Below, in pieces: positions 2,220 through 46,672 of a stretch of DNA of 47,792 nucleotides (its first letter is position 1; each line of letters begins with the position of its first letter). The stretch is from a virus: positions 1-47,792 of the IMG/VR virus record IMGVR_UViG_3300025419_000004; one strand, given 5' to 3'. The notes under the pieces were generated by a model, which was given only the letters and a program-made list of their open reading frames with translations, was not told the origin of the DNA and made no database searches. The position numbers and the translations under genes were made by a program.

Positions 2220-2420
2220 ATGGACTATGTCTGCCCGATATGCAAGAGGGAGATGAAGACGAGGAAGTACGACGGCCTCCGCCAGGACGGGATGGACTCG
2301 GTCGAATGCTTGGCCCCGGGGTGCGGGTACTTCGACTACTTCGACCCGGGCGACCCCGTGGTGCTCGACTACTACCGGCCGGAAAGCCCCAGGTTCCACA
2401 GGTTCGAGGCCCGCGCATGA
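2220..2420 (+). CDS. Small zinc-ribbon protein
   Basis: This 66-residue protein starts with MDYVCPICKREMKTRKYDG and has a second Cys pair (CLAPGCGYF), giving CxxC-x(24-26)-CxxxxC, a typical zinc-ribbon layout. It starts 1 nt after the stop of the virion gene upstream and overlaps the next gene by ATGA at 2417-2420, so the three are translated together. Zinc ribbons of this size in phages are usually nucleic-acid or protein binding, but no specific role can be given. Confidence 0.7.
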   Translation: MDYVCPICKREMKTRKYDGLRQDGMDSVECLAPGCGYFDYFDPGDPVVLDYYRPESPRFHRFEARA

Positions 2421-4150
2421 GGTACCTCTACCACTGCACCCCCGCCGACCGGATGCCCAGCATCCAGAAGATCGGCCTCCGGCCTTCGGAGGACTCGAAC
2501 TGGGGAGGGGAATTCGAGGCATCGTCGCTCGGGAGGGTGTTCCTTGCCGACACGCCGGAGCATGCCTACTATTTCGGGGAGATCATCTTTCGGGAAAACC
2601 TGCGGGGCCTCGGGGTGGCGTTCCCGCCGGTCGTCCTCAGGACAAGGGCCCCTCGGGATGCCGTAAGGAGCGCCGAGGACGAGCACGAATTTTCCGTGGA
2701 AAGGGAAATCCCCCCGCAGGAGATCGACGTCCTGTGGCACGGCTGGAGGCCCATTGGGAGCGCGACGCCCGACTGGGAGGACATGGGGTACAGGCTGAAC
2801 GATGACGAGGGCGTCTACGAGGACTGGGAGGGCACCCCCTTCGACAGCATGGAGGAGGTGCTTGCGGACGCCAAGGGCACCTTCCTGTCCCCCGCCTCGG
2901 CATCCCCGAAGAAAGGCGGCACCATGCCAAAGGATCACGCAAGGGAACGAGGGGCGGCGAAGGTCATCGTGGCGGTGACGCATTCCAGGGTCCTCCTGGC
3001 CATGCCGTGCATCTTGTCCGATGGCGACCCCAGGACCATCCCGCAGGTCGGGGGGGCCAAGGTGGGGGAGATCCTGGAGGTCCAGAAGAACGGGGGGAAG
3101 TGGGTCATGAGGACGTTCCAGGAGGCCTCCGACCCGGGGGAGGAGGACGGCTACGGGACGAGGCCCACCGTGTTCTTCGTGCGGCACGGGCACACGCCCT
3201 TCAACTCCACGACCGGGGACTCCCTGGACGGAAAGATCAGGGGGTACCTCGACATACCCCTGGACGACGAGGGAAGGAAGCAGGCCGCGGAGGTGGCGGA
3301 GAAGTTCGAGGGCATGCCCGTCTCGGAGCTATGGTCGTCGGACCTGGGAAGGGCGACGGAGACCGCCAAGGAGATATCGGAGGTCACGGGAAGGCCGGTG
3401 CGCCCCACGAAGGCCCTGCGTCCCTGCGACTGGGGGGACATGAACGGCAAGGTGGTCAGGGACTGCATCAAGAAGATGGAGGAGCTGCAGGAAAGCCTGG
3501 ACGTCCCCGCCCCGGGGGGCGAGACGTTCGGGGGGTTCTACCGGAGGGCCAAGCAGGGGGTCGAGATGCTCCTGGCCAGGGCGGAGGGCGGGACGGAAAC
3601 CGACTACCCAAGCCTTAAGGGAGGGATCAGCATGGACGCAAAAGAGCTTAGCGAGGATTTGGCAAAGACGGCCGGGATACTGTGCGAGATGGAGCCGAAC
3701 GCCGACCAGGGGCTCCAGGCCATCGTGGGGGACCCGGACGACGTGCGGACGTCGACCTTCGTCCAGTTCAAGCCCAACCCCGGCACCATGCAGCTCCCCA
3801 ACCCCCTGTCCCCCGTGGAGGGCGACGACATCTTCTTCGCCTACATGATCCCCGGCGCGAAGTTCCAGGCGCACGACGGAACCCAATGGAACATCATGAC
3901 CTACGGTGCCCCGGACCAGATCGAGATCGAGAACGTATGGTATCCCCGGGAGCACGCAATCGTGGCCATAGGGGACATCCGGCGCAGCATCGACCAGTGG
4001 ATCGAGCCCGTGCAGCAGTACGTCCCGGCCCCGCCTCCGGGGGTGGACTACTCCTCCCTGCCCGTCAAGGTGATGGACAAGGAAGACAACGTGGGGGACA
4101 TCGACCAGAGGACGGACTCGGGGGCGTCCACCCAGACCGGCGGATGGTAG
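2417..4150 (+). CDS. Virion-block fusion: ART-like domain, permuted histidine-phosphatase domain, structural C-terminus
   Basis: A 577-residue protein with three visible parts. Residues 1-110 look like an ADP-ribosyltransferase/Tpt1-like fold (YLYHCTPADRMPSIQKIGL, then GRVFLAD). Residues 180-392 carry histidine-phosphatase motifs: RHGHT at 256-260, a SSDLGRATETA segment at 307-317 and GGET at 367-370. The second-His motif normally near the C-terminus (here VTHSRV, 187-192) lies before RHG, so the domain seems circularly permuted. Residues 406-577 are structural-looking and Pro-rich. A strong internal Shine-Dalgarno precedes Met406. Context suggests a virion component carrying enzymatic cargo, or a polyprotein-like fusion. 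Catalytic activity is inferred from motifs only. The ATG overlaps the upstream stop (ATGA). Confidence 0.7.
   Translation: MRYLYHCTPADRMPSIQKIGLRPSEDSNWGGEFEASSLGRVFLADTPEHAYYFGEIIFRENLRGLGVAFPPVVLRTRAPRDAVRSAEDEHEFSVEREIPPQEIDVLWHGWRPIGSATPDWEDMGYRLNDDEGVYEDWEGTPFDSMEEVLADAKGTFLSPASASPKKGGTMPKDHARERGAAKVIVAVTHSRVLLAMPCILSDGDPRTIPQVGGAKVGEILEVQKNGGKWVMRTFQEASDPGEEDGYGTRPTVFFVRHGHTPFNSTTGDSLDGKIRGYLDIPLDDEGRKQAAEVAEKFEGMPVSELWSSDLGRATETAKEISEVTGRPVRPTKALRPCDWGDMNGKVVRDCIKKMEELQESLDVPAPGGETFGGFYRRAKQGVEMLLARAEGGTETDYPSLKGGISMDAKELSEDLAKTAGILCEMEPNADQGLQAIVGDPDDVRTSTFVQFKPNPGTMQLPNPLSPVEGDDIFFAYMIPGAKFQAHDGTQWNIMTYGAPDQIEIENVWYPREHAIVAIGDIRRSIDQWIEPVQQYVPAPPPGVDYSSLPVKVMDKEDNVGDIDQRTDSGASTQTGGW
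3619..3634 (+). promoter_or_regulatory. Internal ribosome binding site and in-frame start (Met406)
   Basis: GGGAGGG at 3619-3625 lies 6 nt before an in-frame ATG at 3632. This is one of the best Shine-Dalgarno sequences in the block and sits exactly at the junction between the phosphatase-like domain and the structural C-terminal domain. It would give a separate 172-residue product (3632-4150) from the same frame. Production of two proteins is inferred, not shown. Confidence 0.5.
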
Positions 4151-4885: not shown

Positions 4886-6481
4886 CTCGATCTCACTGGA
4901 AGCAATCTCATATCCTACATCCGCCGGATCATCGAGGACGCGATAAGCCGCAGTCCGCGCTTCAGGAGCACCCTCGGGAAGGTCGCCACCCAGTACAGCA
5001 ACATCCTCCAGTTCCAGGACGCCCAGGTCACCATCAAGGACGTGGCCTCGGCGGGAAACCGCCTCTCGCCCGACTACTTCCTGTGCAAGACGTACGGCAG
5101 GGCCATCCTGGCCAAGGTCCAGGACCACGAGGGGCAGTTCGTGGAATGGCTCCAGGAGATAGACCCGACGAGGGCCGCCCCGCCGCCCGGGGTCTACTAC
5201 CTGAACGTGGACTCGGTGGACGAGCAGACCAACGACGTGGGGCTGGGCGTCCAGACCTACCAGTGGACGGAGGGCAAGGTGGTGAACGCCCAGGGGTCCG
5301 TGGCGTACCTGGCCCCCTGGGTGGACGGGACCGCCCTCGAAGCAAGCATCCCCGGCTCCCCGCCCGTGATCCTGACGACGGCGGTGGGGACGGGCGACGC
5401 CCCCCCGGACGTGGACGTCCTGCTCTTCCCCCACTTCCTCTACCTCCTGACCCCCACCCCGGCGGGCCTGGAGCTGTACACGCTGGGCTCCCCGCCCGTC
5501 GCCCTCGTCCCCATGCAGGACTACTGGTACCAGCAAAAGGCAAACGTAATCATCGTCCAGAGCACCGTGGGAGGAAAGGAGGTGGCGAACCTCCCAGGCG
5601 ACTTCCTGTCCTTCGTCCTGGTGGACCAGACGGGATACGAGCTCCGGCCCGGGATAGACTACACGTGGTACGCCACGAACGGATGGATAGAGCTTTCGCA
5701 ATGGACCCCGCCGGGCCAGACCGTCATAGCCCGCCTGACGGTCAAGGCCGACCCCTCGACGGTGCCGGGGACCAATCCCGAGAACGTACTGGCCATGAAC
5801 CTGGGGCCGGGGAAAACGCCCGCCCAGGTGTTCATCCACACGCAGTCCGCGACCTACACCAGCGTCTCGCCGGAGCCGGACGGGACCGTCGTCCTCCCCG
5901 TCCTCCTGACGCCGGGGCAGTCGTGCCGCTGGGAGGCCAGGACGGACGGGGGGGAGCGCCGGGCCACGGCGAAGAAGTTCAACCTGAACGACAACGTCGT
6001 CATGCCGGGTCTCAGGGTGGCGATAGGGGACAACGTGACCGTGGGGGACCAGGTGGCGGTGATCGTGTCGCCCCAGGTCTGCGAAACCTACGAGGTGTAC
6101 GGGTCCAAGGATAACCTGGACTTCACCATCGACGTGAGGTCCAACGACCTCCAGACGTCGTCCGACCTGAGCGAGATGCTCAAGCAGCAGCTCCTGGTGA
6201 TGCGCCGGACCAACATGGAGGCGGACGGGGTGACGATCTTCGAGGCAAGGCGGACCTACCACGGCACCCAGCGCGACGCCTCGGGCACCGCCCCGCAGTT
6301 CGTCTACACGATAGGGATAACGGCCATGGCGGACTGGAAGGTGTTCGTCCCCCTCGTCACCCGTTTGATGCACCTGGAGATAACGGAGTCCGCCTACGCC
6401 TACGCCCCGACCGGGAGGCTGAGCCTCCAGCCCAGGACCAGGGCCTTCGGCGTTACAAAATTTATCCAATCATATTCATAG
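4883..6481 (+). CDS. Virion structural protein (532 aa)
   Basis: A 532-residue beta-rich protein with a GTG start behind AGGGGGAACC. There is no signal peptide or membrane span. The middle contains Pro/Gly-rich repeats such as PPGVYYL and SPPVIL, and the C-terminal 150 residues (from DLDFTIDVRSNDL-like sequence to the end) look like a globular domain. Together with the gene at 908 it is likely part of the tail, neck or baseplate, but I cannot assign a T4-type counterpart. Its stop codon is followed immediately by the 13-mer AAAAACAACTTCC and then a homing endonuclease gene. Start-site hairpin at 4845-4885 may restrict its translation. Confidence 0.7.
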   Translation: MLDLTGSNLISYIRRIIEDAISRSPRFRSTLGKVATQYSNILQFQDAQVTIKDVASAGNRLSPDYFLCKTYGRAILAKVQDHEGQFVEWLQEIDPTRAAPPPGVYYLNVDSVDEQTNDVGLGVQTYQWTEGKVVNAQGSVAYLAPWVDGTALEASIPGSPPVILTTAVGTGDAPPDVDVLLFPHFLYLLTPTPAGLELYTLGSPPVALVPMQDYWYQQKANVIIVQSTVGGKEVANLPGDFLSFVLVDQTGYELRPGIDYTWYATNGWIELSQWTPPGQTVIARLTVKADPSTVPGTNPENVLAMNLGPGKTPAQVFIHTQSATYTSVSPEPDGTVVLPVLLTPGQSCRWEARTDGGERRATAKKFNLNDNVVMPGLRVAIGDNVTVGDQVAVIVSPQVCETYEVYGSKDNLDFTIDVRSNDLQTSSDLSEMLKQQLLVMRRTNMEADGVTIFEARRTYHGTQRDASGTAPQFVYTIGITAMADWKVFVPLVTRLMHLEITESAYAYAPTGRLSLQPRTRAFGVTKFIQSYS

Positions 6482-6494
6482 AAAAACAACTTCC
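6482..6494 (+). repeat. 13-mer shared by both homing-endonuclease insertions (copy 1)
   Basis: AAAAACAACTTCC follows the TAG stop of the structural gene with no gap and precedes the GIY-YIG gene. An identical 13-mer in the same position relative to a stop codon precedes the second GIY-YIG gene (40560-40572, minus strand). It probably marks the 5' edge of a mobile cassette. Confidence 0.55.
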
Positions 6495-6517
6495 TCTTGC
6501 TTAAACAGGAGGGAGTT

Positions 6518-7426
6518 ATGTTCATCTACCTCATCGTCAACCGCGAGACCGGGAAGTACTACATCGGTCAGCACAAAGGCAACAACCTAAAGAAGTACCT
6601 CCAGCAGAAGTTCCACCATGCCCAAAGAGGGATATCCGAGAACTCCCGCTTGTTCCGTTCAATGAGGGCACATCCCGATCCCTCCATCTGGTCCATCCAC
6701 GCCCTCCGTTCCGACATCCAGACAAGGGAGGAGCTCGACCAGATCGAGCGAGATTTCATCAAATTCCTCAAAGCACAGGACCCCGGATACGGCTACAACA
6801 TCTGCCGGGGAGGAGAGGGGTTCACGGGGCCGCATACGGAGGAGACCAAGAAAAAATTATCGGCTTCCATCAGAGAAGGCATGTCAACAACCGCATACCG
6901 CCAAAAAAGGTCCCGTCTTTCAAGAGAGATGTGGCAACGACCGGGGTATAGGGAAGACCACATTACGAAAATGAAAGAGACACTCGCCAGTCCTGATAAG
7001 CGTGCCGAAAAAGCTAGGATCAGCAAAGAACTATGGCTCAATAATCAGGAGAGAAGGGCTAAGCAATCGCAATTTGATAGAATAGCGTGGTCCGATCCCG
7101 AGAAGCGTGCCAAAAGAATTGATGCCATAAAGAAAGGCCACGCCAACCCTACCACCCGTGCCAAATGCAGTGAGGCCTCTCGACAAAGATGGCTAGACCC
7201 AGCATGTCGTGTCAGAATGACACAAAGCAGAAAATCCCGACGAATTGACTTGGCTGGGCGGAGTTTTGGGCTATGGAAGGTGCTGCATTTTGCGGGAACG
7301 ATGGGTAAAGAGTCAATGTGGTGGGCGGAATGCCAAGGCGGGTGTCGAATTCAAAAAGCCGTCGCTGGCAGTTCGTTGAGGGGTGGCACTTCAAGAAGCT
7401 GCGGGTATGCTTGGCTTCATCCTTAG
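6518..7426 (+). CDS. GIY-YIG homing endonuclease with NUMOD-like repeats
   Basis: A 302-residue protein. The N-terminus carries the GIY-YIG core (FIYLIVNRETGKYYIGQHKG), then conserved Arg and Glu positions (ALRSD, IERDF) and YGYNICRGGEGFTG. The middle has NUMOD3-like DNA-binding segments (GPHTEETKKKLSASIREG and similar). The end has FGLWKVL...WWAEC...SLRGGTSRSCGY, a zinc-module pattern often attached to phage endonucleases. ATG 6518 is preceded by AGGAGGGAG. Codon use is richer in A and T than in flanking structural genes, a mark of a mobile gene. It would cut DNA at a target site to copy itself. The N-terminal half is closely related to the endonuclease at 39601-40533. Confidence 0.9.
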   Translation: MFIYLIVNRETGKYYIGQHKGNNLKKYLQQKFHHAQRGISENSRLFRSMRAHPDPSIWSIHALRSDIQTREELDQIERDFIKFLKAQDPGYGYNICRGGEGFTGPHTEETKKKLSASIREGMSTTAYRQKRSRLSREMWQRPGYREDHITKMKETLASPDKRAEKARISKELWLNNQERRAKQSQFDRIAWSDPEKRAKRIDAIKKGHANPTTRAKCSEASRQRWLDPACRVRMTQSRKSRRIDLAGRSFGLWKVLHFAGTMGKESMWWAECQGGCRIQKAVAGSSLRGGTSRSCGYAWLHP

Positions 7427-7429
7427 CCC

Positions 7430-7633
7430 CTATTCCAGGAACTCCAGGAGCACCTTCTCGGCCTCCTCGACGGTGGGATAGCCGAACAGGGGGGTGGCGG
7501 ACCTCAGCGCCGCCCATTCCTTGCCCGACTCCTTGCCCACTTGGAGCTCGATGCTCTTCCTGACCTGGTCCCCGACGAGGAACTCGGCAAGCCTCTTGAT
7601 GAATATCCTCTTTCTCTCCACTTTGCTGGACAT
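7430..7633 (-). CDS. Hypothetical protein (67 aa)
   Basis: A 67-residue Lys/Glu-rich protein (SSKVERKRIFIKRLAEFL at the start, TVEEAEKVLLEFLE at the end) predicted to be mostly helical and soluble. It is the last gene of the minus operon that contains the RNA ligase and NadV/NatV, and converges with the plus-strand homing endonuclease 3 nt away. GGAAAGGAACGG lies just before the ATG. Function unknown. Confidence 0.6.
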   Translation of the reverse strand: MSSKVERKRIFIKRLAEFLVGDQVRKSIELQVGKESGKEWAALRSATPLFGYPTVEEAEKVLLEFLE

Positions 7634-9065: not shown

Positions 9066-10484
9066 CTACTCCTCTTCCGTATACCTGTCGAAGCTGGCGG
9101 CCAGCTTGCGCACCTCTTCGAGCGTGTAGGACTTCAATATCCTCCCGTCCTCGAACACCGTGTGCAGGAGGTTCCCGGCCTCGTTGTTCTTCCATCCGTG
9201 CTGGGCCACGCGAAAGTCCTCTTTGCCATGCATGAGGAGGTCGAACCGGCCCCCGATGGACGCCTTGCCCGGGTCCGCCGTGGTGGTTTTGTACACGTCG
9301 AACCATTCGCCGCCGCGCCTTACCGCCGAGCACTTGATTGCGAAGCGCATCGTGTCGCGGTTCTGCTGCTGGAGGAGCGCGCCGCCCATGCCATAGCCCC
9401 AGTTGTCCATGGACCACCCGGCCCGGGTGAGGTGCGAGTTGATGCGGAGGATGTTCTGGTAGTTGACGCCGTCCCCCTGGATGACCCTGACCTTCGGGTT
9501 CAGCACCCTCCATCCCTTCTGGTTGGTGTCGAACCCGAACTTCTCCGCCAGGGCGTTGAAGATGTCCTCAATCACCACGCAGGGGTCGCCGGAATCCGGG
9601 CGCAGGACGACGGTGCCGTTCCTTTGCAGGACTTTGTCCCGCAGCTTGCCCCCGAAGATTTCCGACACCGCATGGTGGGCGTCGTAGCTGTCGACGACGC
9701 ATGCCGCCAGGGGCGTGGGGCTCCTGCCCAGCATGTTGGCATATGCCTCGGCCTCGTGCGCCTCCCCCCAGGACGTGACGGTCGAGTGCTCCATCGCGGG
9801 GATGGAGAATCCCGCCATGGGGGCAGCGTAGTACCCCCGCAGGAGGGCGAGCGCCGCCATGGTGTCGGTACCAAGGAAGTTGACCAAGTGCGCCGCCCCG
9901 CCGATGGCTGCGGTCTCCTCCGAAGACACCCCCCGGTAGCCGAAGTCATGCAGCTTAAAGGGCAGGAGGGCGGGGTCGCCGGTGCGGACGAGGTCCTTGC
10001 CGATGGCCTGCTTGATCTCGAAGGAAAGGGTCCCGACCGTGATCGGATACCACACCTTGAGCAATAGGGTCTCCGCCCAGTTGGTGAGCCATGGGAACTC
10101 GGGATTCGTGTTCTCGACGGTCATGAGGACGTTCTTGACCGGCACCACCATGCCCTCCGGCACCGCCCTTACGCGGAGCGGCAGGCTGCCGTCGTGCTTC
10201 TCCAGGAGGCGCATCCAGCCTTCCCGGTTGAACACCCGGTAGTCCCCGAAGTGCTCCTTGGCCAGCTCGCTTGCCTCGTTGACGTCGCTCCTGTTGAAGA
10301 CCTCCCCCTCGAAGTATGCCTTGAGGATGTACTGGAGCCCGAAGAACAGGGTGTGCTTCCAGAAGCCGCCCCGGGACATCAGGTATGAATAGACGTGCTC
10401 GACGTCCGGGGGGTACTGGAACCAGTGCGACAGCTTGTAGCTGTCGGTCCTGAGCAACGGATTGATCCAAAGCCTTTTCGGCAT
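9066..10484 (-). CDS. nadV: Nicotinamide phosphoribosyltransferase (NadV/NAMPT)
   Basis: A 472-residue full-length NAMPT, which joins nicotinamide and PRPP to make NMN. Key residues of the family are in place: DSYKLSH (14-20), HDFGYRGVSS with Asp180, EHS with the catalytic His233, VLRPDSGDP with Arg295 and Asp297, IQGDGV (336-341) and the phosphate-binding GYGMGGALLQ (363-372). GAGGAGGAAGGC precedes the ATG, and a short CCCCG/CGGGG hairpin sits about 20 nt further upstream. NatV lies two genes upstream in the same operon, so the two could turn nicotinamide into NAD+. Phage KVP40 has the same enzyme pair. Confidence 0.95.
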   Translation of the reverse strand: MPKRLWINPLLRTDSYKLSHWFQYPPDVEHVYSYLMSRGGFWKHTLFFGLQYILKAYFEGEVFNRSDVNEASELAKEHFGDYRVFNREGWMRLLEKHDGSLPLRVRAVPEGMVVPVKNVLMTVENTNPEFPWLTNWAETLLLKVWYPITVGTLSFEIKQAIGKDLVRTGDPALLPFKLHDFGYRGVSSEETAAIGGAAHLVNFLGTDTMAALALLRGYYAAPMAGFSIPAMEHSTVTSWGEAHEAEAYANMLGRSPTPLAACVVDSYDAHHAVSEIFGGKLRDKVLQRNGTVVLRPDSGDPCVVIEDIFNALAEKFGFDTNQKGWRVLNPKVRVIQGDGVNYQNILRINSHLTRAGWSMDNWGYGMGGALLQQQNRDTMRFAIKCSAVRRGGEWFDVYKTTTADPGKASIGGRFDLLMHGKEDFRVAQHGWKNNEAGNLLHTVFEDGRILKSYTLEEVRKLAASFDRYTEEE

Positions 10485-36399: not shown

Positions 36400-37041
36400 T
36401 CAGAAGGAAAAAATCCACGAAAAGATGATGTTTATTCCTGGTGGAAGTAACAAAGGAGGTAATGTCTTATAGTTCAAAAGGATGACCGTCTGCTGCGCCG
36501 CCGCCACGCTGGGGTAGGAGGACGGCACGCCGTCGAAGTACGGCGCGGTCTGCATGGGCGTAGAAGGGAGCCCTCCCCCGATCAGCCCCATCTCCCGGAT
36601 GGCCTGGACGATGCCGTCGACGGTCGGGTTGACCGTGGTCTGGAAGTCCACGCTCGTGGATATGGTGTTGACCGGGTTGAAGTTCCCGCTGTTGTCCTGC
36701 GTCACGAAGTTTATCCTGGAGAGCCGGATGCGGGCGATTTCCTGGACCATCGCCACCTGCGAGGCGGTCTCTATGGGCTGCGTCTCGGGTGCCCACGTCG
36801 GGCTCCCGGCCCCGAGGGCCAGCCCCCATGCGCCCCATGCTGGCTCGACGGCCGGCACGCTGATGGGCTGCGTCTGCGGAGGGGACAGCGAGATGGGGCT
36901 CGCCGTCGCCATGAAGATGGAGAACAACCACCTGCTGACGTCGGTTATGATGTTGTCGGCGCGGTACAGGACCTCCCCGGTGTCCTCCCTGGAGACCGTG
37001 ATCCTCCCCCTCCTGATGATGGCATCGTGCTTCTCCGTCAT
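36400..37041 (-). CDS. Virion structural protein (213 aa)
   Basis: A 213-residue protein with an Asp/Arg-rich start (RGRITVSREDTGEVLYRADN), a Pro/Gln-rich middle (SLSPPQTQPISVP) and a hydrophobic end (PPLLLPPGINIIFSWIFSF). It overlaps the large ART-Nudix gene by ATGA, so both are made together. Tail or baseplate role is inferred from position. Confidence 0.6.
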   Translation of the reverse strand: MTEKHDAIIRRGRITVSREDTGEVLYRADNIITDVSRWLFSIFMATASPISLSPPQTQPISVPAVEPAWGAWGLALGAGSPTWAPETQPIETASQVAMVQEIARIRLSRINFVTQDNSGNFNPVNTISTSVDFQTTVNPTVDGIVQAIREMGLIGGGLPSTPMQTAPYFDGVPSSYPSVAAAQQTVILLNYKTLPPLLLPPGINIIFSWIFSF

Positions 37042-39122
37042 TTTGTTCCCCCCTTGCCTTCCCCGGGCATGCCCCTTCCCTTCCGGCACAGCCGCCGTAT
37101 CATCTTGCCGGAATCCTCGAACAGGGCGAGCATGCCGGGATGGAACTGCTTGGGATCGGACTCCATGAGCGCCTCGGCGTCGTCCAGCCCCACCCACCTT
37201 ATCTTGTCCGTCTCCCATGCGCTGTCCTCTACGGGGCGGAAGGCAAACTCCCTCTGCACTTCCCCGACGAAGTTGAAATACTGGAACTTGCCGTCCTTGT
37301 AGACGAAGGCGGGATGGAGCAGGATGCCTCCCCCGTACCCCGTCTCCTCCTTCAGCTCGTGCCTGGCGCTGTCGGCGGGCGACATCCCCTGCTTCACCGC
37401 CCCGCCTATCGTGCCCCAGCAGTTCCCCTTCAGGACGTCGGCGCTGCGCCATGCGAGGCAGACGCGCCCGGTGGCAGGGCATACGGGAAGGATGCCGGAC
37501 GCCGCGTCGCCCTCTCCCGCCCAGTGGCCCTCCTCGTCGATGTAGTCGGCCTTCTTCTCAATCGCCAAGTCGGACAGCCGTCCGACAATCTTGCCCTTCT
37601 GGATCATGACGTAGATTTTGTCGGCAGGCACGGGATGCTGGGACAGCCAGTCGCCGGGCTCGTAGGCGATCACGTTCCCGTATGGATGCCGCTGGACCGG
37701 GCCCAGGTCCTTCAGGCTTACGGCAAGCCATACGTCCCCCCAGACGCTTATCGGCCTGGAGGAGAACGAGCCCTGTATGAACCCCTCGGCCTTGATGGAG
37801 GGCAGGTATTCCAGCCTGGTATGGTGGTAGACGAGGTCCTTGGGGAGCGCCAGGGCGAGTTTGGCTACCTTGCCCCTGGCCGCGGCATCCTCGTGTTCCC
37901 TATGGCTTTTCTCTATCTTCGCCTTGACGTTCTCCGGGGTGGTGTCCTCGAAGCGGAGCACGAACGAGGACCCGCATGATGGGTCGGGGTCGGTAAACCA
38001 GACGTGCCCCCCCGAGATGCCATCGAACCTGCCTCCCCCGTCCTTGACCTTCTGGGCAAGGGCCTCCTCGGAGTCCCCGCCTCCTGGAGGAAGGCTGGTT
38101 ACGCCCGCAGCCTTGCCCTTCGCGCCCTCCAGCAGGAGGACCTCCTTCTTCACCTGCTGCCTCCTGGCCTCCTGGTCCTTCCATCCCTTGACCTCGGGCT
38201 CCCTGAAAAGCTCCCTGGCCAGCAATGCGGCCTTGCGGCGGACGGAATGGGGGACTTCCGAGCCGTGGTCGAGGAGGAAGGTGGCGACCGCGACATAGTC
38301 CTGCTTCCGCTCGGGCGTGTCGAGGGCCATGCCCTCTATCTCGGCGAGGAGCGCCGGGACGTTCTCCTTCGGTATGGGCTCATCGAAGCCCAGCGCCGTC
38401 CCCGGCTGCCTGTACCTGTCCAGGATGTCGTGGGCGGAGTCCCCATCGTAGGAGCGCACCCCCCACTGCCCCGCCTTCTTGCCGTACTGCATCCTGAGCA
38501 GTTCGTTGTGGAACCCGGGCCCGAGCGACAGCGTCCCCTTGGGGTTCCCCTCCTTGTCGTACACGACGAGGTAGAGGGGGAAGGGCTGCGTCTTTATGCT
38601 CTGGAACCTGTAGCGTCTGATGGCCTTGAGGACGTCGTTCTTGGACGGCTTCTCCGGGCGGTCCTTGACGAACTCCAGGGCCCTGTACTTCGGGGCCTTC
38701 CTGACCTTCTTGCCCGCCGTGACCACGTGCTTCTGCGTCTCGTTGACGAACCCCATGGGAAGCTCGAAGCTCCCCCTGGCGGTCCTCACCGTGGGGTCCT
38801 TATCCTCCTCCTCCGCCTTCCCCCTCTCCGTGATTTCCCTGTAGCATTCGAGGGCCAGGGCGTACATCTTGGCGATGACGTCCTTCCCGTACCCCGTGGA
38901 GAGCATGAAGGCCGACATCTCGTCCAGCATCACGGCCAGGGCCTCGCTCGCCACCTGCCGGAACACGCCCGGGTCGCTGGGAGGAGCCGGGAACTTTACG
39001 GAAAATATGGAGAAATTGGGTATGCCGAGGTCCAGGACTATGGAGGCGGACGGCTGCGCCGAGCGCGTCGTCGTTATTTCGAGCGTCCCGTTGGCCGGCG
39101 AAAGGTAGGACTTCTTCTTCAT
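37038..39122 (-). CDS. Large virion-block protein with ART-like and Nudix domains
   Basis: A 694-residue protein. The first 400 residues look structural (SASIVLDLGIPNFSIFSVKF). Residues 430-515 are ART/Tpt1-like (VYHHTRLEYLPSIKAEGF, then WLAVSLKDLG). Residues 545-670 are Nudix-like: TIGGAVKQGMSP, then ARHELKEETGY (586-596), keeping E-L-x-E-E-x-G but with Arg and one Glu of the box changed. Nudix enzymes often cut ADP-ribose, the product or substrate of ART chemistry. The gene lies among baseplate genes, so the domains may be carried in the particle. Activity is inferred. Confidence 0.7.
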   Translation of the reverse strand: MKKKSYLSPANGTLEITTTRSAQPSASIVLDLGIPNFSIFSVKFPAPPSDPGVFRQVASEALAVMLDEMSAFMLSTGYGKDVIAKMYALALECYREITERGKAEEEDKDPTVRTARGSFELPMGFVNETQKHVVTAGKKVRKAPKYRALEFVKDRPEKPSKNDVLKAIRRYRFQSIKTQPFPLYLVVYDKEGNPKGTLSLGPGFHNELLRMQYGKKAGQWGVRSYDGDSAHDILDRYRQPGTALGFDEPIPKENVPALLAEIEGMALDTPERKQDYVAVATFLLDHGSEVPHSVRRKAALLARELFREPEVKGWKDQEARRQQVKKEVLLLEGAKGKAAGVTSLPPGGGDSEEALAQKVKDGGGRFDGISGGHVWFTDPDPSCGSSFVLRFEDTTPENVKAKIEKSHREHEDAAARGKVAKLALALPKDLVYHHTRLEYLPSIKAEGFIQGSFSSRPISVWGDVWLAVSLKDLGPVQRHPYGNVIAYEPGDWLSQHPVPADKIYVMIQKGKIVGRLSDLAIEKKADYIDEEGHWAGEGDAASGILPVCPATGRVCLAWRSADVLKGNCWGTIGGAVKQGMSPADSARHELKEETGYGGGILLHPAFVYKDGKFQYFNFVGEVQREFAFRPVEDSAWETDKIRWVGLDDAEALMESDPKQFHPGMLALFEDSGKMIRRLCRKGRGMPGEGKGGTK

Positions 39123-42448: not shown

Positions 42449-45400
42449 CTAGCTCCCCGACGCCACGTAGCCGATGGTGACGCGGCCCGGCACGACGTAC
42501 TCCGTGCTGGAAAGGACGACGTCGCTCGCCGTCGTCTCCCCCTCCACGACGTAGGTCACGAAGTAACTCTTGAGCGAGGGCGTCGGCGTGTCGGCCGGAA
42601 TCGTGAGGATGACCTTCTGGGCGTAGGATGCGGCGAGCGGCGCGGAGGCGCTGACCTGGTCGTTGGCCCCTATGATGTAGAACGAGCCGTTCTCCGAGGA
42701 CACGGAGGGCGTCGCCGCATTGTCGAGGAAGTCCCGCACCGACGTGGCGCGGGCGTATTCCTGCCCCTGGTAGAGCAGCCCGACGAAGGCGTCTGCAGGC
42801 CCCCCCGAGGGGACGGTGCTGTCCGGAAGAATTTGGCCGGAGGAGATGAAGCTGTTGCTCGGGACCGCCAGCCCGGTGAATGCTGGGTCCTGGGAAAGCG
42901 GGGTCCAGGCCGTCCCCGTGGGTATCACGACCGCGACGTCGTAGCTCCCGTCGCTCTTGGCGCACTTCGTGAGGGGCAGGACGACGGACTTCACGCCCGG
43001 GACCGCCTGCACCTGGGCGACGATCTCGGACTGGTAGAGCGTCGTCTCGGCGTTGTCCAGCACCGTGTCGATGGCGGTGCGGACGGCCGGGTCTATCGTG
43101 CTGGCTGAGATTCCCTGCTCCAGCACCACGGTCAGCGTGACGTCCACGGGGTTGGCGACCATCGCCTTGACCAGCACGTCAGCATCGGCATGCTTCGTGC
43201 TGGCGATCCGATTCGCCAGGATGGGGACGAACGCGGGGTATTCCGTGGCGACGGTGAAGGCCTCGTTGTAGAAGTACGACACGAGGACCTGCCCGCCATC
43301 GGGGATGCGGCTCGTCCCGCTGACGGACGTGTTCCTCTGGATCGTGGCGAGGCCCGAGATCGGGTCCACGGCAAGGATGAAGTCCACGCCCTCGACCATC
43401 GTCTCGTACGTCGGGGGATCCTGCCCGTTCTGGAACAGGACCTTGACGTAGCGGCTTGCGTAGGGCACCCTGGCGGCGATGAGGTCGACGTCCAGGACGA
43501 GGACGGTGCCATCGACCGTGTCCCCCAGGGGATTGACGTAGCTGGTGCCGTAGGTCGGCGGCTGCCATGCGTTCTGGATGAACCCTTGGTTGGCCAGGGC
43601 GCTGGGGATGCTCCCGTTGAGCGTCAGGGCCTCGCCGGAGGCGAAGCTCAGGCTCTCGCTGACGACGAACTTGTTGTACGCCACGACCACCTTCTGCTGG
43701 TCCTGGATGGCGCTTCCCGTGGCCGTCCCCGTCACCGCCGTGGCGGGAAGGTCGCTGCCGGGATAGGTGGCGGTGAAGGCCGTGCCGGTCGAGGCGACGA
43801 CGACGACGGTCTCCCCGTTGAGGAACGCCGCCGCGTTGGCGGCCGGAATCCCGCCCAGAAGGATGGGTGCCCCCGTCCCGAAGTCGTTGGCGCATGCCAC
43901 GGTCAGGACGTTGCCGGAGATGCTTACTTGCGTGATGGCGACCGACTTGACCTGCGGGAGCAGGGCATACGTGCGGTAGGGCCCGGCGGGCACGATGACG
44001 TAGTCGCCGCCCGGGCCGAAGCTGTACAGTATCGAGGAGTCCGTGGAACGGACGGACAGGACGTTGCCGGGGACGCCGTTCGTGTCCACCGGCAGGTCCA
44101 TCCCCGAGTCGATCAGGACGGGGAGGGGGACGCCTCCCGGCACGCTCGCCTCTATGGTCAGGATGAGGGGGCTGCTTGCCGTGGAGGGGACCTGCGCGGT
44201 GTCCCCGGCCCGGTTGGACCCCCCGTCGAGCAGGAAGTCCGAATGGTGCACCAGGGTGACGAGGGCCTCCGGGACCGCCCCCGTATAGCCCGCCTGCCCG
44301 ACGACGGAATTTACCTTCATCACGGGCTGGTTCTCCGGAACGTCGGACAGGGGGGACTGGATGCGGGCGAGCAGGCTGTAGTTCGCCGAGCCGCCAGCAT
44401 ACGTCACCGCCGCCAGGTTGGTTGCCGGGACGCCGTTGATCAGGAAGGGGACGTAGGCTTGCGTGGGGCCGCTTCCCGTGACCTGGTATGCCATGTCGCC
44501 GGGGTCGAGGATGAGGAACCCGTCCGTGTTGTTGAACTGCGCCTTGCCGAGGCCGAGGAAGAACTGGCCCGTGAGGCTGGAGACCAGCAGCTCCACCCCC
44601 TGGTAGGGCTGCCACGGCAGCGCCCGGAAGGCGGCGCTCCCTATCTGGAACTTCACGAGCTGGCTGGACTTGGAGACCAGGGTGAGGAACAGGTAGCTGG
44701 TGTAGGCCCCGTACGTCCCGGAGTTCTGGTACCGGAACGCCACGATGTCGTCCTCCTCGGACGACGTGTTCCCCTGGACGTAGACGTCAACGCAACCGAA
44801 GACGTGCTTCTGGCGGATGGGGTCCCAGTCCCTCTGCATCTCGACGTCCCCTGCCGCCACCACCTCCCCCGCCACCACGCCCGGAGTGGCCAGGGCGGCG
44901 GTGAGGTAGCCGTCCCGGGTCCCGGAGTCGACGCCCGTGACCTGCCGCACGGCGATGCGGGATGCGAACTTGGAGTTTATCTCGTCGTCCTGCCCGAACG
45001 TGGCGGCGACGGGGTTCGTGATGTTCCAGCCCGCAGGGGCACCGGAGCCTATGGTGCGGATCGTACCGGCCCCCGCGTTCGTGGTGCTTCCGGCAGTCTG
45101 GCACGATGCGGGGACCGACACCGCCCACCATCCGTTGACGGGGTCGTAGAAGGATGCCGCGGAGCCCTTGTCCACCACGGCGGAGCCCGTGGTCATGAAC
45201 GTCAGCGAGGGCGTGTTGCCATCGGGGACCGTGGCGCACAGGATGCCCACGGGAAACGACACCGTGACCGTGGGCTTGACGTAGGTGTAGAACGTGAGGG
45301 TCACGACGGAGGATGTGGCCCCTCCGCGAACGAGCCCCACGCTTTCCCCGAGGATGTCGAACTGCTTGTCGATGAGCGTCTGCGTGTCGTTGGCGCTGAG

Positions 45401-46672
45401 CCCGAAGGCCCGGGAAATCTGCTGCTTGACGGAGGAGGTATTGAACGGGTCGCTGGTCCCGTTGCCGCTTGCGTTGTCCACCTGGCTCATGGCGGACACC
45501 GACTGGCTCACCCTGGCGAACCATTCCCTGACGCTCATGTTGGACAGCTCTATGGCCACGGGGTCGATGAGCAGGTCGCGGGGCTCCGAGCGGGGGGTCA
45601 AGTCGAGGTCCGGGTAGAGCTGCGTCATGTAGGCAATGAGCCGGCCGGCGATGTCCTCCTTGCGCTGGAGGGCGAGGAAGTCGGTGGGGCTGACCAGGGA
45701 CAGGTCGGCAAACCCACACGTCACGGGCCCGTTCTGCTGGGATTCGAACACCACGCTGGTCAACGGATCCTGAACGACCGTCGAGAGCATGGCATAGAAC
45801 TTGGCTGCCCCGTTGACCGCCGAGGGCAGTATGTCCACGTAGTTGTAGGTGAACTCCTGCGTCTGGTTGACCGTGGTGATAACCTGCGTGCCGGTCTTCG
45901 GGTCGTAGCTCGTGGAGGTGGAGCTGTCGATGACCTGCGTGCTGGTACGGCTGACCGCGCTGGTGGGGACCACGTCCCCGTACTGGACGTACGGCGGGCT
46001 GACCCCGGCAGGGTCGGTGGAGAGCATGACCTTGGTCCCCATGGTCCCCGGGAAGGTCGGCATCAGCCATTCCACCCGGCAGGCCACCTGGGACTTGTAG
46101 GAGCTTATGCCGCTCGGGGGGCCGATTACGGCGCTGGAGCCGCTGACGAACGGTATGACGGTGAAGCCGACCGTGGGGCTCACCTCGTAGAGGCCCATGT
46201 TCTTCCACGTGGTGCCGCCGTCCTGCGTGATGGTGGCGGGGAGGTCCTGGGCGATCCCCGCAGGGGTGAAGACGACGGGCTGGGAGGCCCCGGTGGGCCC
46301 GGTGGCCGCCGTGACGGCCTGCACGTACCCGTTGGCGTCCACGAACCGGAAGCCCACGGCATACAGGGTCCTACCCGCCCACGTCATTATCTGCATGGGA
46401 TCGTAGTTCCTGGCCAGGAACTGGAGGACCGCCTGCTCGCCCTGCGTGTCTATGGCTATGGTGCCGACGAAATGCGTCTTTCCGGACACGGGGGGCAGGG
46501 GTGCGCCGTTTATGGTGACGGTCCCGTAGATCGAGACCTCAAGCCGGACGTAGGAGGAGTCGGCCAGGACGTCGTATGGAAGGACGGTCGAGTCCACCGA
46601 CATGGAGGTGGCTCCAGCCTGGAGGACCGGCGTGACGAGCGTCAAGGCGCTTCCCGAGATTGGTGGCTGCAT
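42449..46672 (-). CDS. Baseplate J-like protein (1407 aa)
   Basis: A 1407-residue protein. The central region (about 560-640) contains NPVAATFGQDDEINSKFAS, then RDGYLTAALATPGVVAGEVV, the core of the Baseplate_J family (T4 gp6-like). The C-terminus has VTLTVVLEQGISASTIDPAV and IVAQVQAVPGVKSVVLPL, also typical of the family. The remainder is made of beta-rich insertions. It is larger than usual gp6-type proteins, which run near 400-660 residues. It would link wedges around the baseplate hub. It overlaps the upstream gene by 1 nt (TGATG). Confidence 0.85.
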   Translation of the reverse strand: MQPPISGSALTLVTPVLQAGATSMSVDSTVLPYDVLADSSYVRLEVSIYGTVTINGAPLPPVSGKTHFVGTIAIDTQGEQAVLQFLARNYDPMQIMTWAGRTLYAVGFRFVDANGYVQAVTAATGPTGASQPVVFTPAGIAQDLPATITQDGGTTWKNMGLYEVSPTVGFTVIPFVSGSSAVIGPPSGISSYKSQVACRVEWLMPTFPGTMGTKVMLSTDPAGVSPPYVQYGDVVPTSAVSRTSTQVIDSSTSTSYDPKTGTQVITTVNQTQEFTYNYVDILPSAVNGAAKFYAMLSTVVQDPLTSVVFESQQNGPVTCGFADLSLVSPTDFLALQRKEDIAGRLIAYMTQLYPDLDLTPRSEPRDLLIDPVAIELSNMSVREWFARVSQSVSAMSQVDNASGNGTSDPFNTSSVKQQISRAFGLSANDTQTLIDKQFDILGESVGLVRGGATSSVVTLTFYTYVKPTVTVSFPVGILCATVPDGNTPSLTFMTTGSAVVDKGSAASFYDPVNGWWAVSVPASCQTAGSTTNAGAGTIRTIGSGAPAGWNITNPVAATFGQDDEINSKFASRIAVRQVTGVDSGTRDGYLTAALATPGVVAGEVVAAGDVEMQRDWDPIRQKHVFGCVDVYVQGNTSSEEDDIVAFRYQNSGTYGAYTSYLFLTLVSKSSQLVKFQIGSAAFRALPWQPYQGVELLVSSLTGQFFLGLGKAQFNNTDGFLILDPGDMAYQVTGSGPTQAYVPFLINGVPATNLAAVTYAGGSANYSLLARIQSPLSDVPENQPVMKVNSVVGQAGYTGAVPEALVTLVHHSDFLLDGGSNRAGDTAQVPSTASSPLILTIEASVPGGVPLPVLIDSGMDLPVDTNGVPGNVLSVRSTDSSILYSFGPGGDYVIVPAGPYRTYALLPQVKSVAITQVSISGNVLTVACANDFGTGAPILLGGIPAANAAAFLNGETVVVVASTGTAFTATYPGSDLPATAVTGTATGSAIQDQQKVVVAYNKFVVSESLSFASGEALTLNGSIPSALANQGFIQNAWQPPTYGTSYVNPLGDTVDGTVLVLDVDLIAARVPYASRYVKVLFQNGQDPPTYETMVEGVDFILAVDPISGLATIQRNTSVSGTSRIPDGGQVLVSYFYNEAFTVATEYPAFVPILANRIASTKHADADVLVKAMVANPVDVTLTVVLEQGISASTIDPAVRTAIDTVLDNAETTLYQSEIVAQVQAVPGVKSVVLPLTKCAKSDGSYDVAVVIPTGTAWTPLSQDPAFTGLAVPSNSFISSGQILPDSTVPSGGPADAFVGLLYQGQEYARATSVRDFLDNAATPSVSSENGSFYIIGANDQVSASAPLAASYAQKVILTIPADTPTPSLKSYFVTYVVEGETTASDVVLSSTEYVVPGRVTIGYVASGS

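Follow-up and report, generated by a model that had tools for sequence, protein, structure and literature searches.

Evidence for a circularly permuted histidine phosphatase fused to a phage tail-region protein

Histidine phosphatases (HPs) carry the RHG motif first and their second His near the end. Here, we describe an open reading frame (ORF) of viral DNA, at 2417–4150 of a 47,792-nt stretch (IMG/VR record IMGVR_UViG_3300025419_000004; hereafter, the window, meaning the whole stretch), in which this order is reversed. That its HP is a circular permutant is well supported by sequence, phylogeny, locus comparison, and a structure model. In this gene, a conserved tail-region protein, which appears to belong to large soil phages of a myovirus-like family, would carry an enzymatic extension joined in frame to its N-terminus. 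For the account as a whole, namely a permuted HP at a canonical locus, with a predicted normal fold and an internal start that likely gives two products, we estimate a probability of roughly 0.7.

Results

Reversed order of the histidine-phosphatase halves

The fusion gene comprises three domains joined by short peptides (Table 1; residue numbers refer to the product of ORF 2417–4150). The HP module covers residues ~177–390, which corrects earlier bounds. Directly upstream, the stop codon of a 66-aa ORF and the start codon of the fusion gene overlap (ATGA), and the two may be translationally coupled.

TABLE 1 Features of the fusion gene and of the ORF preceding it in the window
Feature	Residues	Position	Strand	Basis
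Zinc-ribbon-like small ORF, 66 aa		2220..2420	+	Sequence; Pfam DUF2387, E 4e-4, below cut-off
Whole fusion ORF: ART-like, permuted HP, and tail-region domain, 577 aa	1-577	2417..4150	+	Translation
ART/Tpt1-like domain; YHCT and IPPQEI motifs	1-153	2417..2875	+	Conserved in four relatives; weak Tpt1 profile match
Leader peptide before HP, kept from canonical layout; internal ATG at 2924	154-176	2876..2944	+	Alignment to L009 leader
HP C-half, now first: second-His strand, helix, final beta hairpin; His189	181-233	2957..3115	+	Ortholog alignment, model
New linker, old C-terminus to old N-terminus	234-248	3116..3160	+	Ortholog alignment; low-confidence loop in model
HP N-half, now second: RHGHT, SSDLGRA, GGE helix; Arg256, His257, Arg312	249-390	3161..3586	+	Pfam His_Phos_1, alignment, model
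Trailer peptide kept from canonical layout; encodes Shine-Dalgarno of tail-region domain	391-405	3587..3631	+	Alignment
Tail-region domain; own ATG and strong Shine-Dalgarno; homolog of stand-alone Tunturi_5 gp323	406-577	3632..4147	+	Homology

The original prediction had put the second-His motif ahead of RHGHT, SSDLGRATETA, and GGET, and the translation agrees at every position: VTHSRV lies at residues 187–192 (THSR at 188–191, with His189), followed by RHGHT (256–260), SSDLGRATETA (307–317), and GGETF (367–371). The Pfam profile His_Phos_1 matched residues 252–392 over its positions 1–140 of 194 (E 1e-31; 110.5 bits against a curated cut-off of 21.7). As this match stops at position 140, the family's C-terminal quarter is missing from its expected place. 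The missing quarter lies upstream, at residues 182–233, which match the C-terminal regions of canonical orthologs in an ungapped alignment. This 52-aa C half is 46–62% identical to all five canonical HPs, again ungapped (55.8% to L002 and 61.5% to L009, with a z-score of about 22 against shuffles), a resemblance far beyond chance. The N half (141 residues) aligned to the canonical orthologs at 48–54% identity, likewise ungapped; for scale, the ART-like and tail-region domains are 56–67% and 67–72% identical to those of the same relatives.

Rejoining the two halves in normal order gave one Pfam match over profile positions 1–188 of 194 at 119.1 bits, compared with 112.6 bits in two stretches (1–140 and a second stretch) for the natural order. 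All five canonical relatives have RHG first and the second His late, as expected of branch-1 HPs (His_Phos_1). In the window, the second His precedes RHG, which marks a permuted relative rather than an ordinary branch-1 member. Both halves are homologous to a single canonical domain and stand in reversed order, as in a circular permutant.

Canonical, permuted, and absent states at one locus

We compared 61 loci with a tail-region domain, and their ORFs, from contigs of viral collections. Five architectures were seen. At most loci, including Tunturi_5 gp323, the tail-region domain forms a separate gene on its own. A further relative, L007, joins it to the ART-like domain with no HP; L011/L012 and L020 join it to an HP with no ART-like domain; and L002–L006, L009, and L010/L015 have the ART-like domain, a canonical HP, and the tail-region domain. 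The fifth architecture, with a permuted HP, was found in the window only, in collections from which near-identical records may be absent. All 11 other HP-bearing contigs, which hold five distinct HP sequences, are canonical. The canonical orthologs share with the window gene its locus, trailer, tail-region fusion, and internal start, and also its leader where the ART-like domain is present, but their HP is in normal order.

No further permuted copy was found among viral contigs with the HP module or by exact DNA pattern, and the genome contigs searched yielded no permuted copy and one distant canonical HP. Searches of plasmids and the PDB returned N-half matches, in the case of the PDB among the matches listed. 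No record in the phage and plasmid collections covered at least 80% of the permuted HP query, and the phage collection yielded no match at the DNA level. On contig L100, a second, divergent canonical HP was observed in a 341-aa ORF (6477–7499, minus strand), about 5 kb from the HP-tail fusion of the same contig.

Junctions and route of the permutation

Window residues 149–173 align to the leader of L009 and residues 388–424 to its trailer, and for each alignment none of 500 shuffles was as good. The flanks are thus fixed, while the two HP blocks have exchanged places and gained a new linker of ~15 residues. Comparison with the orthologs places the cut after the GGE helix and ahead of the second-His strand, with the old termini joined by the linker. 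The simplest route, and one that fits having leader and trailer in place, would be that the HP segment was duplicated in tandem and that the first N half and the last C half were then lost in frame. Circular permutation by duplication and truncation has been described as a model (PMC3320104). No duplicated intermediate was found among the relatives, and the new linker held no DNA relics of duplication above shuffles.

Phylogeny and rate of change

In a maximum-likelihood tree with outgroups, the reordered window HP and the five canonical HPs formed a clade with 100/99 support, in which the window HP was sister to the other five on a longer branch. Because the outgroup HPs are canonical, the permutation is derived.

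The five canonical HPs agree at 99 sites, and 29 of these have changed in the window HP; counted in the same way, each canonical HP departs at 1–5 of about 75. The upstream minor-tail homolog of the window shows no such excess (17/253; Fisher p 1e-7 versus HP), and the tail-region domain shows a smaller one (18/117; Fisher p 0.011 versus HP). Branch depth could be part of the cause; running counter to pure branch depth, the upstream gene sets the window close to L012 (81% identity). Fast evolution of the permuted HP could also mean relaxed constraint. In both HP halves, pN is well below pS (about half or less), a comparison that includes the time before the permutation, and codon-position GC is broadly even along the fusion ORF. 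The changes at otherwise fixed sites amount to a concrete prediction on structural adjustment after permutation.

Predicted fold and catalytic residues

The HP module alone was modeled with AlphaFold2, using an alignment in which ortholog N- and C-half fragments were placed on the matching parts. The model is one compact unit (mean pLDDT 80, pTM 0.83) that begins with strand, helix, and hairpin, continues through a loose loop, and only then enters the RHG strand. Foldseek against the PDB gave 63 matches with E up to 0.001, and the 50 listed were all histidine phosphatases. Each alignment spanned ~130–150 columns, as a permuted chain should give with an aligner that works in sequential order. 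The histidine-phosphatase fold anticipated for this region was therefore borne out by AlphaFold2 and the top PDB matches.

According to this model, the permuted chain would fold into the normal HP alpha/beta sandwich. Arg256 and His257 of RHG, Arg312, and the second His, His189, are all kept, and the GGE loop is intact. From what is known of the family, these four residues would share a single phosphate pocket, and His257 would be the nucleophile that becomes phosphorylated. Branch-1 histidine phosphatases usually have a proton-donor Glu in an LRE motif; the window and all canonical relatives read LRP, with Pro for Glu. A role in NAD- or nucleotide-related host takeover would be our guess.

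The ART-like domain

By eye, the YHxT start, GLxP turn, and IPPxxI end of the N-terminal domain seem to resemble Tpt1-type ADP-ribosyltransferases. The best profile match was to RNA 2'-phosphotransferase (Tpt1; PDB profile, E 0.05) over only 25 residues, and the Pfam search gave best E values of about 0.05–0.3, none above cut-off. An AlphaFold2 model of the domain was unusable (pLDDT 41). The ART/Tpt1-like label given at the outset thus keeps its motif and a weak Tpt1 profile match, with nothing above the Pfam cut-off behind it. In addition to the four relatives in which the domain is conserved, a 1263-aa protein on a 456-kb phage contig (G002; L099 3441–7229, minus strand) has about four ART-like repeats, one of them 41% identical to the window domain. 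These related repeats indicate that the ART-like family, whose activity is putative, is real.

Elsewhere on the window, a nicotinamide phosphoribosyltransferase (NAMPT) homolog at 9069–10484 (minus strand) suggests phage NAD salvage. Tunturi_5 gp321 (L001 2791–6879), annotated as a MutT/NUDIX hydrolase, looks by eye like a mosaic whose segments resemble metalloproteases, 2H-phosphoesterases, ARTs, and acetyltransferases.

Internal start and structural setting

In all fusions, the tail-region domain has kept an ATG and a Shine-Dalgarno sequence at its start (aagggagg in the window, aagagagg in relatives), and in relatives without a fusion the same pair is the plain gene start. In the window, this start has the strongest Shine-Dalgarno of 17 in-frame ATGs. 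It ranks from 1 to 4 in the relatives and is not top in every one. A ribosome-binding site and start codon of its own inside the fusion ORF make two products likely, which would be the tail-region protein alone and a form extended by the ART-like and phosphatase domains. To judge from sequence and synteny, the extended product would put some enzyme on the particle.

The tail-region domain family had no match in Pfam, PHROG, or PDB. The gene upstream is a homolog of Tunturi_5 gp322 (annotated minor tail protein) and the gene downstream a homolog of gp324 (annotated tail terminator), with the sheath gene near. Tunturi_5, a 309-kb isolate with a contractile tail, infects an acidobacterium (PMC11924767). 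Its gp322–gp324 (PP885688) follow the same gene order, but gp323 is the tail-region domain alone, with neither ART nor HP fused. Synteny with these genes supports a structural setting for the window gene, and carriage of the enzyme on the virion seems plausible.

Discussion

The window HP resembles histidine phosphatase branch 1 (His_Phos_1; PhoE-type 1h2e/1ebb, phosphoserine phosphatase 4ij5, and glucosyl-3-phosphoglycerate phosphatase 4pz9) in its RHG, SSxLxRAxxTA, GGE, and second-His segments and in its predicted fold, but differs in its swapped halves, in the Pro at the LRE glutamate, and in its fusion to other domains. In swaposin and DNA methyltransferases (PMC3320104), blocks of a fold have likewise been exchanged, which duplication and truncation explain; here, by contrast, canonical, permuted, and absent states occur at one locus of related phages. 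In the literature searched, we found no description of a permuted histidine phosphatase. What is new is a variant of a known superfamily, circular permutation itself being already known. Few circular permutants can be set beside their ancestral state at the same locus. Here, one gene of related phages has permuted, canonical, and HP-less alleles with unchanged flanks, so that a direct test of how permutation affects the rate, stability, and activity of an enzyme becomes possible, as does direct comparison of a rare rearrangement with its form of origin.

That the enzyme is circularly permuted, as originally proposed, is upheld by canonical-order orthologs at the same locus, by the near-full-length Pfam match on reordering, and by the confident single-domain fold. 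Its occurrence in a single contig could invite the view that the swapped order is a misjoin in metagenomic assembly. This is very improbable, as the three new junctions all lie in one reading frame, share no long repeat that could cause a misjoin, and leave leader and trailer intact; codon-position GC is also broadly even along the ORF. Moreover, the halves differ from each canonical allele found at about 40–50% of residues, so that the window form could not have arisen by misjoining of any of these canonical copies. Equally improbable is that an HP already permuted elsewhere was acquired and inserted at the same place. The long branch and sister position of the window HP would suit such an origin, but leader, trailer, and insertion point are common to window and canonical HPs, the clade uniting them is strongly supported, and searches of the phage, plasmid, and PDB collections found no other permuted HP, the PDB matches listed covering the N half. 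Hardly any weight falls on the idea that THSR arose by chance beside a single RHG half, two non-homologous elements in one chain; it would account for Pfam alone detecting only residues 252–392, but it is refuted by the alignment of the whole C half to ortholog C halves and by the profile that this half restores.

More weight, if still a minor share, goes to an active site that forms only between two subunits, in a segment-swapped dimer, or to a decaying pseudo-enzyme. The excess of changes at otherwise fixed sites would be in keeping with either, while the intact catalytic Arg and His residues and GGE loop, the open frame, the low pN relative to pS, and the confident single-chain model speak against them. 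We therefore retain a permuted HP that folds within one chain as our preferred reading. Its fullest form, in which a natural permuted HP is functional, has reached fixation in a lineage of phages whose locus shows permuted, canonical, and absent alleles, and is carried on the particle as an optional extension governed by internal initiation, we hold tentatively, at a little under even odds.

Several further genes were observed around the locus. ORFs resembling GIY-YIG/NUMOD3 homing endonucleases occur in the window (6497–7426, plus strand) and in L002 (2815–3738, directly upstream of the ART-like gene), both by Pfam, and by eye in L009 (3957–4667 and 8057–8704). They occupy differing positions around the locus in the three contigs and could be drivers of its rearrangements. 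The minus strand of the window also encodes a 694-aa protein with a NUDIX domain at its C-terminus (37041–39122) and a 1407-aa protein with a Baseplate_J domain (42452–46672), placing structural genes on both strands of the contig.
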